A DNA stretch of 64,000 nt, from the NCBI RefSeq assembly GCF_000787395.1, contig NZ_JRAA01000001.1:806001-870000 (forward strand), read 5' to 3'. The notes beneath the pieces were generated by a model that was not told the DNA's origin, searched no databases, and saw only the letters and a program-made list of their open reading frames with translations. Source of the stretch: Solemya velum gill symbiont. GTDB lineage: Bacteria; Pseudomonadota; Gammaproteobacteria; Chromatiales; Chromatiaceae. A program made the position numbers and the translations under genes. This document shows, one piece after another, positions 48,331 to 54,021 of the stretch (within the stretch, counting starts at the first letter, position 1; every line of letters starts with the position of its first letter).

Positions 48331-49209
48331 ATGACTGCAACGTTAATCGTTGGCTGCGGCGACCTCGGGCGCCGAATTGCCGCAAAACTGCTCCGGCAAG
48401 GTGCTTCTGTTACGGGTCTAGTACGCTCAGACAAGAGCGCACAACAACTTGCCCATGAAGGCGTTACGCCTTGCATCGCAGACCTCGACACTGCTATTGC
48501 ACCCATCAATATCGATGCCAAACACCTGCTCTATCTTGCGCCGCCACCTCCACAGGGGAGTGTCGACACACGCATGCAACATTTTCTCGATGCCGTGTCA
48601 GGCACGCCGAAAAGCCTTATCTACTTAAGCACAACTGGCGTCTATGGCGACTGCCATGGAGCATGGATCGACGAAACTGCAACTGTCGCACCCAAAGCCG
48701 AGCGTGCAAAGAGACGTCTCGATGCGGAACAGCAGATCAGACAAAAGGCGACACGGGAAGGCTGGCCCCATATCATCATTCGTGTTGCCGGCATCTATGG
48801 CCCGAACCGGCTGCCATTACAGCGCCTCGAGAGTCAGGAGCCGCTATTATGTGCCGATCAGGCGCCATTTACCAACCGTATTCATGTCGACGATCTTGCC
48901 AGCATCATTCTCGCCCTGGGTGAAAAGGGCCGTAACGGGGAAATCTATAACGTGACTGACGGTCAGCCGGGCAATATGACTGACTATTTCATGCGCGTTG
49001 CCGATTTTGCTGGATTACCGCACCCGCCGACAATCAGCATGGCAGAAGCACAGGGGGTGCTCAGCAAGGGTCTGCTGAGCTACCTGAAAGAGTCGCGCCG
49101 CCTCTCCAATGCAAAACTGATGGCAGACCTCGAACTCGAACTGGAGTACCCTACGCTTGACGACGGCCTGGCCGCCATATTCAACCGATCACCAGAGGAT
49201 CTTCAGTGA
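48331..49209 (+). CDS. NAD(P)-dependent SDR-family epimerase/dehydratase-like protein
   Basis: A 292-residue atypical or extended short-chain dehydrogenase, related to the YeeZ type of nucleoside-diphosphate-sugar epimerase. The NAD-binding loop is LIVGCGDLGRRIAAKLL. The region LIYLSTTGVYGDCHG provides the active-site Ser and Tyr-like residues, and IIIRVAGIYGPNRLPL and TNRIHVDDLASIILA are typical of extended SDRs. The substrate is unknown. Its stop overlaps the GTG start of engB (GTGA), so the two are translationally coupled. Confidence 0.86.
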   Translation: MTATLIVGCGDLGRRIAAKLLRQGASVTGLVRSDKSAQQLAHEGVTPCIADLDTAIAPINIDAKHLLYLAPPPPQGSVDTRMQHFLDAVSGTPKSLIYLSTTGVYGDCHGAWIDETATVAPKAERAKRRLDAEQQIRQKATREGWPHIIIRVAGIYGPNRLPLQRLESQEPLLCADQAPFTNRIHVDDLASIILALGEKGRNGEIYNVTDGQPGNMTDYFMRVADFAGLPHPPTISMAEAQGVLSKGLLSYLKESRRLSNAKLMADLELELEYPTLDDGLAAIFNRSPEDLQ

Positions 49210-49811
49210 ACCCTTTTTTCTACCAGGCTAAATTTGACATGAGCGCTGCCGCACTGGAGCAACTACCCAGCTGCGAAGATGCCTACGAGGTCGCTTTTGC
49301 CGGCCGTTCAAACGCAGGCAAGTCGAGCGCCATCAACACACTGACAAACCAGAAGAGTCTGGCACGCACCAGTAAAACCCCCGGCCGCACCCAGCTGATC
49401 AATCTCTTCTCCCTTGATGAGAATCGTCGACTTGTCGATCTGCCCGGGTATGGATTTGCCAAGGTACACAGCTCAATTCGCGAACAGTGGCGTGGATTGT
49501 TATCCAATTACATCGAACAGCGTGAGTGCCTCAAGGGCGTCGTAGTCATGATGGATTGCCGCCACCCGATGAAGGATCTCGACATGCAAATGATTGAATG
49601 GTGCGTTCATCTCGAACTGCCGGTTCATATCCTGATGACCAAGTCGGACAAGCTCAAAAACGGTCCCGCCACCGCCGCCATGCTCAAGGTTCGCAAGCGC
49701 ATCGCAGAGTACCCCGATGTCACCGTACAACTCTTCTCCGCACTCAAAAAACGCGGCGTTGATGAAATCCATGCCAAGCTCAACGAGTGGTACAACATAC
49801 AGGCTGAATGA
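49206..49811 (+). CDS. engB: ribosome-biogenesis GTP-binding protein EngB/YsxC
   Basis: Small GTPase needed for 50S subunit assembly and cell division. The 201-residue product has the P-loop FAGRSNAGKSSAINTL (residues 32-47), the switch TSKTPGRTQLINLFSL and the G3 motif RLVDLPGYGFAKV. The G4 motif is ILMTKSDKLKNG. The start is GTG at 49206, overlapping the upstream stop. Polymerase I (polA) often lies next to engB in this class and is found 1.5 kb downstream here, on the other strand. Confidence 0.97.
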   Translation: MNPFFYQAKFDMSAAALEQLPSCEDAYEVAFAGRSNAGKSSAINTLTNQKSLARTSKTPGRTQLINLFSLDENRRLVDLPGYGFAKVHSSIREQWRGLLSNYIEQRECLKGVVVMMDCRHPMKDLDMQMIEWCVHLELPVHILMTKSDKLKNGPATAAMLKVRKRIAEYPDVTVQLFSALKKRGVDEIHAKLNEWYNIQAE

Positions 49812-49821
49812 ACTCGCTGAC

Positions 49822-51291
49822 ATGACTGAAGAGTGGAAAAAACAGGGATACATCGCTGCGAGACAATTAATCGATAGCGAAACCATCGATTACCTCGCAT
49901 CTCTGGACGTAGACTCAGGTGATCTAAGCAAACCCAATGAGCTGAAGCGACTGTGGATGACAGATACGCAAGTGCGACAGCTTGCTACCAGCCAAACCAT
50001 CCGTCACCAGCTGGACTCACTTTTCGAAAACAGCGATTACTATTTATGGGGCGCCCAAATTATTGATCGCGAGCCTGACCAGATCCATCTCTGGCATTCA
50101 GACAACGAAACCAGCCGGCCTGAAGGTGGCTTCGTTTCACTCTGGATCGGCATCTCCGGTGTTGATGAGAACAGCACCTTGATGGCGATTCCCGGCAGCC
50201 ATACATATGGGGTGCCTGTGCAGAAATTCTTTGCCTATGAAGACCCGGCAAGATATGACCCCGATGGCGTGGCCGTACTTGAAAAAGCGCTTGAATACGA
50301 TTCTGAAGCCAGCATTATGGCCCCATCCTGCAATGATGGAGATGGCATATTCTTTGACGGCCGCTTGTGGCATGGCACTTTCAACCATAACAGGCTTCCA
50401 CGACGTACCCTGTTACTGCAGTATGGCAAACGTGGCATACCGATCAGGTTCGCTAAGGACTATATGTCTTACCCATTTGTTTATAATGACGGCCATGCAA
50501 GTGCCCCTCCAGTGATGCCAGTCCAGGGAAAACCTGACCCCTTGGTCAATCACAATGTTCTGGAAAAGAACGGACAACTGACCTATACGGCAGCATCTAT
50601 TGCCGTACAGCCTGAACTTGCAAACAAGAAACAGTTGAACTGGGCCGCCTTCCCTTACTTCAACACGCCGACCCGGATTTTCAGAAAGTTCTCGTGTCAT
50701 GCTTCAGAACTGCTGCCGGGATGCATGCCGCATATGCCACATGATCATGATGACGAGGAGATCCTGCTCGTCCTCTCAGGCACAGCAACCATCTTCATCA
50801 ACGAACCGGGCAAGGGAGCACTTCGGGCATATCCATCCCTCGCCGGAGATTTTTTCTATTATCCTTCAGGGCAAACACATACGATCTACAACGGCAGTGA
50901 AGAACCGATTCAATACCTCATGTTCCGCTGGAGCGCACGGGCAGCGCAATCCAGGCCAGCAAAAACTGTCGGATATAAAAAATCCTTCTATGATGCAGGA
51001 AACAATCGGCTTTCAGTCAACCACCAGAGTTCCGGGCTAAAACATCTGCACATGCATTTCACCCGACTGCAACCTGGCCAATCATTCAAGCGGCATGTCG
51101 ATCAATACGACACTGCAATTATTGTTCTTGAAGGTGAATTAAGCGTACTCAATCAACGACTTGGCCGTGGTGGTGTCTTTTTCATCCGGGCCGGTGAACT
51201 GCATAACACGCACAATGAGGGAACAGAGCCGTGCGCCTACCTGGTGTTCGAATTTCATGCTGACACAGCGACAACCATCAAGGCGGTCTGA
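49822..51291 (+). CDS. PhyH-like dioxygenase fused to two cupin domains
   Basis: A 489-residue multidomain protein of unknown substrate. Residues about 1-205 form a phytanoyl-CoA dioxygenase-like 2-oxoglutarate/Fe(II) domain with the facial triad HSD (His92, Asp94) and His184 in GRLWHGTFNHN, plus RRTLLLQYGKR for 2-oxoglutarate. Residues about 285-370 are a cupin with HMPHDHDDEEILLVLSG and YYPSGQTHTIYN. Residues about 400-480 are a second cupin with QSFKRHVDQYDTAIIVLEGE and FIRAGELHNTHN. All three modules keep metal-type histidines. The start is ATG at 49822, 10 nt after engB; an upstream extension would overlap engB. No biosynthetic cluster adjoins it. Confidence 0.82.
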   Translation: MTEEWKKQGYIAARQLIDSETIDYLASLDVDSGDLSKPNELKRLWMTDTQVRQLATSQTIRHQLDSLFENSDYYLWGAQIIDREPDQIHLWHSDNETSRPEGGFVSLWIGISGVDENSTLMAIPGSHTYGVPVQKFFAYEDPARYDPDGVAVLEKALEYDSEASIMAPSCNDGDGIFFDGRLWHGTFNHNRLPRRTLLLQYGKRGIPIRFAKDYMSYPFVYNDGHASAPPVMPVQGKPDPLVNHNVLEKNGQLTYTAASIAVQPELANKKQLNWAAFPYFNTPTRIFRKFSCHASELLPGCMPHMPHDHDDEEILLVLSGTATIFINEPGKGALRAYPSLAGDFFYYPSGQTHTIYNGSEEPIQYLMFRWSARAAQSRPAKTVGYKKSFYDAGNNRLSVNHQSSGLKHLHMHFTRLQPGQSFKRHVDQYDTAIIVLEGELSVLNQRLGRGGVFFIRAGELHNTHNEGTEPCAYLVFEFHADTATTIKAV

Positions 51292-51306: not shown

Positions 51307-54021
51307 TTAGTGTGCCTCGTCCCAGTTATCACCAATACCAACATCAACAACAAGCGGTACTTTCAGTTCTGCAGCCTGTGACATTCTGCTGCTGATTTGC
51401 TCAACCGCAGAATCGAGCTGGCCTTCAGCAACCTCGAACACAAGCTCGTCGTGCACCTGCATGATCATGCGTACATCAGGCTTGTCATTGCGAATCCAGC
51501 CATCAACATCCAGCATTGCCAACTTGATGATATCTGCTGCTGTTCCCTGCATCGGTGCATTGATCGCGGTACGTTCAGATGCTGCACGACGCATGCCGTT
51601 GCGTGAATTGATCTCCGGCAGGTAGAGGCGGCGTCCAAACACTGTCTCGACATAACCGTTCTGATGCGCATCGGCACGGATTGAATCCATGAACTCCCGA
51701 ACGCCCGGGTAGCGTTCGAAATAGAGATCGACATACTCCTGCGCCACAGAGCGCTCAACGCCCAGTTGCTTGGCCAGCCCGAATGCCGACATGCCGTAGA
51801 TCAGGCCAAAGTTGATCGCCTTGGCAGAACGACGCTGATCAGGTGTCACCTCATCAAGCGTGACACCAAACACCTCTGCTGCAGTGGCACGGTGAACATC
51901 CATGTTGTCGGAGAATGCACCCATCAGAGCCTTGTCGCCTGACAGGTGCGCCATGATGCGCAACTCGACCTGCGAGTAGTCAGCAGCCACCATGCGATAA
52001 CCATCCTCAGGCACAAATGCCTGACGAATTCTGCGTCCCTCTTCGGTGCGCACAGGGATGTTCTGCAAGTTTGGATCCGATGAACTGAGGCGTCCGGTCG
52101 CAGCCACTGCCTGATGATACGAGGTGTGTACCCTGCCAGTGTCGGGATCAACCATCTCCGGCAGCTTGTCTGTATAGGTTGAGCGTAACTTGGCAAGACC
52201 GCGGTGCGACAGGATCACCTGCGGAAGCTCATGTCCCTGCTCGGCCAGTTCCTGCAACACGGACTCTGCTGTCGATGGTGCCCCCTTGGGAGTCTTGGAG
52301 ATTACCGGCAGTTCGAGTTCCTCGAAGAAGATCTGCCCAATCTGCTTGGGTGATCCCATATTGAAGGAGCGTCCTGCAATTTCGTACGCCTGCTCCTCGA
52401 GCTTGTGCATACGGGTTGCCAGTTCGCCGCTCTGCTTGACCAACATCGCCGAATCTATGCGCACACCTGTGCATTCGATGCGCGACAGCACAGGCACGAG
52501 TGGAATTTCGATTGTTTCGAAAACCGATTTAGGGCCACTCTCTGCGGAAAGTTTTGGCCAGATCGCCTGATGCAGGCGCAATGTAATGTCGGCATCTTCC
52601 GCTGCATAGGGAGCAGCCTGCTCCAGCGGCACCTGGTCAAATGTCAGTTGCTTTGCACCCTTGCCGGCAACCTCTTCATACTTGATTGTTTTGAGGTTCA
52701 GGTAGGTCTGCGCAAGCGAATCCATGTCATGCCGTGTCGCGGTCGAGTTGAAGACGTAGGATTCAAGCATGGTGTCATAGGCAACACCCTGCAGGTTAAT
52801 TCCGGCATTCGCCAGTATGTTCATGTCATATTTGAGATGCTGCCCCACCTTGGCGATGTTCGCATCCTCGAGCAACGGCTTGAGAGTCGTCAGCACCATC
52901 TCCCGGTCGAGCTGATCCGGTGCACCCGGGTAGTTGTGGGCAACGGGAATATAGCAGGCCTCTCCCGCCTCGACTGAAAACGACAGGCCGACAATTTCTG
53001 CCTGCATATAGTCGAGACTGGTGGTTTCCGTATCAATACAAATCAGCTCGGCACTGGAGAGCTTTTCGAGCCAACGCTCAAAATCATCCTGTGTCAGAAT
53101 GGTTTCATATTTCAGCTCTGCAGGTGCTTCAGCCTCGGGCGTCTCTGCATCTGCCACTCCAGCCTCTTCATCAAGCGTTGCCAGCAGGCGGTTTGATTCA
53201 ATGTGCCGATACCACTCACGCAGTTTTTGCGTATCTGCTGGTGTGGCAACAAGATCGGGAATCGACTCGTGCAATTTCACATCTGTCTTGATCGTGGTGA
53301 GTTCACGCGACAGCGGTATCTGCTCCATTGAGGCACGCAGGCTTTCACCAATCTTGCCCTTGATGCTGTCAGCATTGGCAAGCAGGTTATCAATGTCACC
53401 AAACTCAGACAGCCACTTGGCAGCAGTCTTGGGGCCACACTTTGGCACGCCGGGAATATTGTCCGAGGTATCGCCAACCAGTGCCAGGTAATCGATGATC
53501 TGCTCAGGTGCGACACCGAACTTGTCGATCACACCCTGGCGGTCGCTTTTTGTCTCCGACATGGTGTTAACCAGGGTGACGTGATCGCTAACCAGCTGTG
53601 CGAGATCCTTGTCGCTGGTGGAGATCACCGTCTCAACACCATCACGCGTTGCTTCTGCAGCAAGCGTTCCAATCACGTCATCTGCCTCTACACCAGACTC
53701 GATAATCACTGGCAGGCCCATGGCACGAATGATCTCGTGCAACGGCTTTATCTGCTCACGCAGGTCATCCGGCATCGGTGGGCGATTGGCCTTGTATTCT
53801 GCGTAGAGATCGTTGCGAAAGGTTTTACCCGGCGCATCGAAAACAACGCCGATATTACTCGGCTGGTAGTCGGCAATCAGCTTGCGCAACATGTTAATCA
53901 CACCAACCAGCGCACCTGTCGCCTCGCCTTTCGAATTCGTCAGTGGCGGCAATGCATGGTAAGCGCGGAACAGGTAGGAGGAGCCATCGACCAGTACCAG
54001 TAGTGGTTTTTGTTCACTCAT
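51307..54021 (-). CDS. polA: DNA polymerase I
   Basis: Repair and primer-removal polymerase. The 904-residue product has all three activities. The N-terminal 5'-3' exonuclease begins with LLVLVDGSSYLFRAYHALPP and contains STSDKDLAQLV. The 3'-5' proofreading domain keeps its DxE motif in ELICIDTETTSLDYM and appears active. The polymerase domain shows AADYSQVELRIMAHLSGD, NFGLIYGMSAFGLAKQLG and MQVHDELVFEV. The start overlaps the stop of the thioredoxin-like gene (ATGA), so it closes a coupled cutA-dsbD-tlpA-like-polA unit, an unusual set of partners for polA. Confidence 0.98.
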   Translation of the reverse strand: MSEQKPLLVLVDGSSYLFRAYHALPPLTNSKGEATGALVGVINMLRKLIADYQPSNIGVVFDAPGKTFRNDLYAEYKANRPPMPDDLREQIKPLHEIIRAMGLPVIIESGVEADDVIGTLAAEATRDGVETVISTSDKDLAQLVSDHVTLVNTMSETKSDRQGVIDKFGVAPEQIIDYLALVGDTSDNIPGVPKCGPKTAAKWLSEFGDIDNLLANADSIKGKIGESLRASMEQIPLSRELTTIKTDVKLHESIPDLVATPADTQKLREWYRHIESNRLLATLDEEAGVADAETPEAEAPAELKYETILTQDDFERWLEKLSSAELICIDTETTSLDYMQAEIVGLSFSVEAGEACYIPVAHNYPGAPDQLDREMVLTTLKPLLEDANIAKVGQHLKYDMNILANAGINLQGVAYDTMLESYVFNSTATRHDMDSLAQTYLNLKTIKYEEVAGKGAKQLTFDQVPLEQAAPYAAEDADITLRLHQAIWPKLSAESGPKSVFETIEIPLVPVLSRIECTGVRIDSAMLVKQSGELATRMHKLEEQAYEIAGRSFNMGSPKQIGQIFFEELELPVISKTPKGAPSTAESVLQELAEQGHELPQVILSHRGLAKLRSTYTDKLPEMVDPDTGRVHTSYHQAVAATGRLSSSDPNLQNIPVRTEEGRRIRQAFVPEDGYRMVAADYSQVELRIMAHLSGDKALMGAFSDNMDVHRATAAEVFGVTLDEVTPDQRRSAKAINFGLIYGMSAFGLAKQLGVERSVAQEYVDLYFERYPGVREFMDSIRADAHQNGYVETVFGRRLYLPEINSRNGMRRAASERTAINAPMQGTAADIIKLAMLDVDGWIRNDKPDVRMIMQVHDELVFEVAEGQLDSAVEQISSRMSQAAELKVPLVVDVGIGDNWDEAH

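Follow-up and report, generated by a model that had tools for sequence, protein, structure and literature searches.

In the gill symbiont of Solemya velum, an oxygenase of the PhyH type is fused to two cupin domains in a single chain encoded between engB and polA, which raises the question of what this protein does and how its gene came to stand there. We analysed the gene within a 64,000-nucleotide stretch of contig NZ_JRAA01000001.1 (positions 806,001 to 870,000, forward strand), here called the window; features are given in window coordinates in Table 1. The open reading frame (ORF) is intact, with 489 codons and a stop, and occupies exactly 49822-51291 on the forward strand, where the first-pass annotation of this DNA had placed it; that annotation was right on location and, in outline, on the reading. 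The N-terminus, MTEEWKKQGY, is kept in the gill symbiont of S. elarraichensis, the nearest named relative of the window genome. An in-frame ATG upstream, at 49717, was rejected as the start; it falls within engB, and the MTEEWKK start is the one kept in the sister species.

Table 1. Features of the PhyH-bicupin gene and its neighbours in the window.
Feature	Position	Strand	Basis
NAD-dependent epimerase/SDR	48331..49209	+	Pfam Epimerase; overlaps engB by 4 bp
engB / yihA ribosome-biogenesis GTPase	49206..49811	+	TIGR03598 240.7 bits, above cut-off
PhyH-bicupin fusion gene, 489 aa	49822..51291	+	Open ORF; Pfam PhyH and two Cupin_2 stretches; dN/dS
PhyH-type Fe(II)/2OG oxygenase domain, residues 1-215	49822..50466	+	Pfam match 43-189; ligand residues
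Linker, residues 216-264	50467..50613	+	Alignment with sister species: strong conservation
Cupin 1, about residues 265-383	50614..50970	+	Sequence, Pfam, profile matches
Cupin 2, about residues 384-489	50971..51288	+	Cupin_2 match 414-475; degenerate metal motif
polA, convergent	51307..54021	-	PRK05755 1233 bits

The oxygenase domain

The PhyH-cupin-cupin order described in the first-pass annotation was supported by Pfam, which matched PhyH (PF05721) at residues 43-189 (51.1 bits against a cut-off of 22, E 2.7e-13) and Cupin_2 (PF07883) in two stretches (protein total 82.5 bits against 27.2, E 1.7e-23). The predicted Fe ligands, H92, D94 and H184, were all found at the positions named earlier, and a predicted 2-oxoglutarate (2OG) arginine, R195, could be added at H184+11. 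Residue roles were assigned from the structure paper of the ectoine hydroxylase EctD, in which the spacing of Arg-259 and Ser-250 relative to His-248 matches that of R195 and T186 (H184+2, at the Ser-250 position) (PMC2871039). By these sequence features, the domain is a member of the PhyH Fe(II)/2OG oxygenase superfamily. With the fusion protein alone, phmmer matched the ectoine hydroxylase structure 4mhr at E 0.0012. A profile search of the domain matched MysH, phytanoyl-CoA hydroxylase, leucine hydroxylase and other solved PhyH enzymes, with E-values that overstate the closeness to EctD because one row of the profile alignment (L009) carries the full EctD motif.

The likeness to EctD comprises an HxD...H Fe site in a WHSD-x-ET context, a GSH motif, the 2OG arginine at +11 and a hydroxyl residue at +2; the stretch WHSDNET..EGG at the Fe site is similar to WHSDFETWH-X-EDG of EctD. 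However, the window motif, WHSDNETSRPEGG, lacks the WH-x-EDG-M/L-P of the EctD signature (PMC2871039), and EctD has no cupins attached. Identity as an ectoine hydroxylase was rejected, as the EctD equivalog TIGR02408 scored 13.6 bits against a cut-off of 336.5 and the signature is incomplete. MysH, phytanoyl-CoA hydroxylase and leucine hydroxylase share the superfamily and the active-site layout, but they are stand-alone domains of low identity whose substrates are not transferable. The window genome has one other PhyH gene (L130, G000:C3:639089-639550), which immediately follows a transposase-like (integrase-core) ORF, overlaps an acetyltransferase-like ORF and is probably truncated at its N-terminus (TTG start, about 207 aa).

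The bicupin half

Cupin 1 carries both canonical motifs, G(X)5HXH(X)3E and G(X)5PXG(X)2H(X)3N, with a complete predicted 3-His-1-Glu ligand set (H307, H309, E313 or E312, and H353), and its profile matches include the metal enzymes oxalate decarboxylase (OxdC) and Sll1358. In cupin 2 the pattern is H425-x-D427-xx-D430 with H461; its first motif lacks both the second His and the Glu, so that two of the four ligand positions are degenerate. The earlier claim that each cupin has metal-type histidines thus holds in full for cupin 1, whereas cupin 2, an H-x-D...H variant, had been over-read. Such a pairing of an intact with a reduced barrel is ordinary, because the characterised bicupin dioxygenases for quercetin and gentisate hold metal in one barrel or in both (PMC4019311). 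Among the roles that the first-pass annotation had offered for the cupins (further enzyme sites, sensor domains or dimer scaffolds), the intact site predicted in cupin 1 speaks for a metal site rather than for scaffolding alone.

The bicupin also showed a weak whole-length profile similarity (E 4e-9) to proteins that NCBIfam names as (S)-ureidoglycine aminohydrolases, which are catalytic bicupins. Like OxdC, these enzymes have two tandem cupins with a 3-His-1-Glu site in one barrel; unlike the window protein, neither has an oxygenase fusion. Identity as an (S)-ureidoglycine aminohydrolase was rejected (TIGR03214, 16.1 against a cut-off of 200), and the OxdC-type bicupin model TIGR03404 scored 15.1 against 254.2, which leaves the window protein, with its degenerate cupin 2, far under the equivalog and subfamily cut-offs. 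An AlphaFold2 model of the fusion protein, built on a two-row alignment of the window protein and its S. elarraichensis counterpart, had a pLDDT of 27.7.

Distribution of the fusion and of the bicupin

The full protein was searched against overlapping sets of 55 relatives and of 369 class, 399 phylum and 210 order genomes. Full-length relatives outside the genus were found in none of roughly 900 sampled Pseudomonadota genomes, and within the 210 genomes of the order the gene was confined to the two of its genus. The first-pass annotation had not recognised the three-domain order from any characterised enzyme; the searches bear this out, since within the searchable data they turned up no protein of this architecture beyond the genus, whether characterised or uncharacterised. 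Nothing turned up in viral contigs, whether the query was the protein, the bicupin profile or a single relative; phage records gave none, and plasmids yielded single cupins only. Phyla beyond Pseudomonadota were covered by one pattern scan of genome contigs, sensitive to close relatives only, and the rarity of the fusion therefore applies to the Pseudomonadota samples. A literature search gave no described case of a PhyH-cupin fusion or of PhyH/sulfotransferase polysaccharide clusters, and the main text of the S. velum symbiont genome paper mentions neither phytanoyl nor cupin. The protein is built from common domains, and the fusion itself appears to be undescribed.

A bicupin profile was searched against the 399 phylum and 369 class genomes, plus 48 genomes of the class to which genome G438 belongs. 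It found one strong relative, a 1351-aa protein of G438 (L032:2201-6256) that is 27-28% identical over the bicupin (E 2.6e-18), the closest bicupin outside the genus in our searches. This protein is arranged as bicupin, radical SAM, bicupin and sulfotransferase, and its gene adjoins a glycosyltransferase gene. Copy A of its bicupin has lost the cupin-1 ligands and kept cupin 2, while copy B has kept cupin 1 and lost cupin 2. The reduced H-x-D-xx-D...H motif of the window cupin 2 recurs in one of the copies, but the G438 protein has no PhyH domain and its partners are different. The fusion to radical SAM and sulfotransferase domains fits a bicupin that is a module reused beside catalytic domains.

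The engB-polA locus

The gene starts 10 bp past engB and ends 15 bp from the convergent polA, both identified by family models (Table 1), so its reported place between the two was confirmed. Between engB and the gene, no promoter- or terminator-like sites were found above chance, which is compatible with one transcript and is not proof of it. We infer that engB and the PhyH-bicupin gene probably share a transcript; the epimerase, engB and the PhyH-bicupin gene, in that order, are presumed to form a single one.

Loci around engB were fetched from 20 relatives, 19 of which were testable and one of which lay on a contig too short. In 10 of the 19, polA was the direct convergent neighbour of engB at a distance of 176-573 bp, in agreement with the statement that the two are near neighbours in many relatives; it stood 4 kb away in one (G016) and was not within about 7 kb in the other eight. 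The PhyH-bicupin gene was present in none of the 20 loci, and its GC content is 50.1% compared with 53-55% in most of its neighbours. On this comparison of gene order and composition, the gene was inserted into a long-standing engB-polA neighbourhood, as the first-pass annotation had suggested. The insertion is probably older than the divergence of the two Solemya-symbiont species, because the gene lies in the same place in both and its dS (0.51-0.57) is of an order comparable to that of engB (0.32-0.41).

Two further observations concern this neighbourhood. In both Solemya symbionts the SDR/epimerase gene and engB share 4 bp, but the SDR/epimerase gene was not found beside engB in the loci of the 20 relatives; the genus thus differs from them on either side of engB. 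In G016, a member of the family, about 4 kb of other ORFs lie between engB and polA (L082:3055-7084), indicating that the interval accepts insertions elsewhere too.

Selection and disruption in the sister species

The window gene and its S. elarraichensis homologue (L002, NZ_MPRK01000088.1) share 79% amino acid identity over 310 codons, with a dN/dS (omega) of 0.20-0.23. The shared codons have evolved under purifying selection; identity of about 79% and a dN/dS well below 1 across two species show that the ORF is not a chance one. Omega was 0.11-0.17 for residues 216-310 (the linker and part of cupin 1) and 0.09-0.12 for engB and the epimerase, which are under tighter constraint than the PhyH-bicupin gene (0.20-0.27).

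In the S. elarraichensis symbiont, the homologous frame is 78% identical to the window gene as far as codon 311. Exactly there it breaks off, inside the cupin-1 metal motif, with H309 before the junction and E312/E313 beyond it, and runs into sequence beginning CAAGCGTGTC. The end of the disrupting repeat (L002:6598-6694), CAAGCGTGTCTTTGATCTCGTGATG, had about 40 matches, mostly at contig ends, in the 380-contig draft, and other copies have the same start and unrelated flanks. We read the break as a mobile-element insertion mapped to the base; no transposase was traced for the repeat. An assembly error at the repeat keeps a residual probability as the cause, because the draft lacks the far side of the break, with the remainder of the gene and the 3' portion of polA. 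As an extra gene at a housekeeping locus that is broken in the sister species, the PhyH-bicupin gene looks like a lineage-specific, dispensable enzyme gene.

Function of the fusion protein

The reading that we tentatively prefer, at somewhat under an even chance, is a soluble two-step enzyme. Its N-terminal domain would be an EctD-like Fe(II)/2OG hydroxylase whose substrate is small and polar, such as an osmolyte, an amino-acid derivative or a sugar/glycan precursor; this substrate class is suggested by the local motif similarity to EctD. Cupin 1, with its intact site, would most likely process or bind the hydroxylated product, which would couple two consecutive steps in one chain, and cupin 2 would probably be a modified or structural partner barrel. 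On this reading, the ancestor of the Solemya-symbiont genus would have gained the gene between engB and polA, at the end of the epimerase-engB transcript. Purifying selection would then have held it, although it was dispensable enough for a mobile element to knock it out in one species. We consider this the best explanation because the Fe/2OG and cupin-1 sites are complete, the gene is under purifying selection and the bicupin is reused beside catalytic domains. Against it count the housekeeping flanks, which offer no metabolic neighbour genes, the failure of our searches to find a characterised homologue of the fusion protein, and the break in the sister species; the incomplete EctD signature and the low TIGR02408 score count against its EctD-like part. 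A bolder form, in which the O2-activating Fe/2OG centre and the second, cupin metal centre perform consecutive steps on one metabolite in a bifunctional enzyme invented in or acquired by the Solemya symbionts, and perhaps put to use for an osmolyte or a surface molecule related to the symbiosis, is unlikely.

Cupins with intact 3-His-1-Glu sites can also bind ligands without catalysis. It is possible, if somewhat doubtful, that catalysis is confined to the PhyH domain and that the bicupin serves to gate or position the oxygenase, either as a module that binds or senses a ligand or as a scaffold for oligomerisation. The degenerate half of the cupin-2 site, the match of the cupins to the ligand-sensing Pfam family AraC_binding (E 6.8e-14) and the single intact barrel in each G438 copy all suit such a role, but the fusion protein has no DNA-binding or signalling domain, and the retention of every catalytic-type ligand in cupin 1 is unexpected under selection for a scaffold only. 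Tailoring of a surface glycan or peptide, with hydroxylation by the oxygenase and isomerisation or epimerisation of a sugar-like substituent by the bicupin, would draw on the glycosyltransferase, sulfotransferase and radical SAM context of the G438 relative and on the SDR/epimerase gene of the presumed transcript. This is distinctly unlikely: the window genome has no glycan genes beside the PhyH-bicupin gene, the G438 bicupin is a distant one by its percent identity, and the SDR matches the Epimerase family only at a general level. Least probable of all is a recently acquired gene that is being lost and has no current selected role. The break at codon 311, the weaker constraint relative to engB and the epimerase, and the absence of the gene from every other sampled genus of the order point that way, but the window copy is intact with all of its ligands present, and omega has stayed well under 1 over the 310 codons since the common ancestor.

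If both metal centres of the preferred two-step enzyme act in sequence, the protein would be a compact two-step oxygenase with no counterpart in the libraries of solved structures and curated families that were searched, and its gene would be a metabolic one specific to the genus of a model chemosynthetic symbiont. If they do not, the protein would be a fused member of its family, and the gene a case of lineage-specific gain at a housekeeping locus and of later loss through mobile-element insertion.
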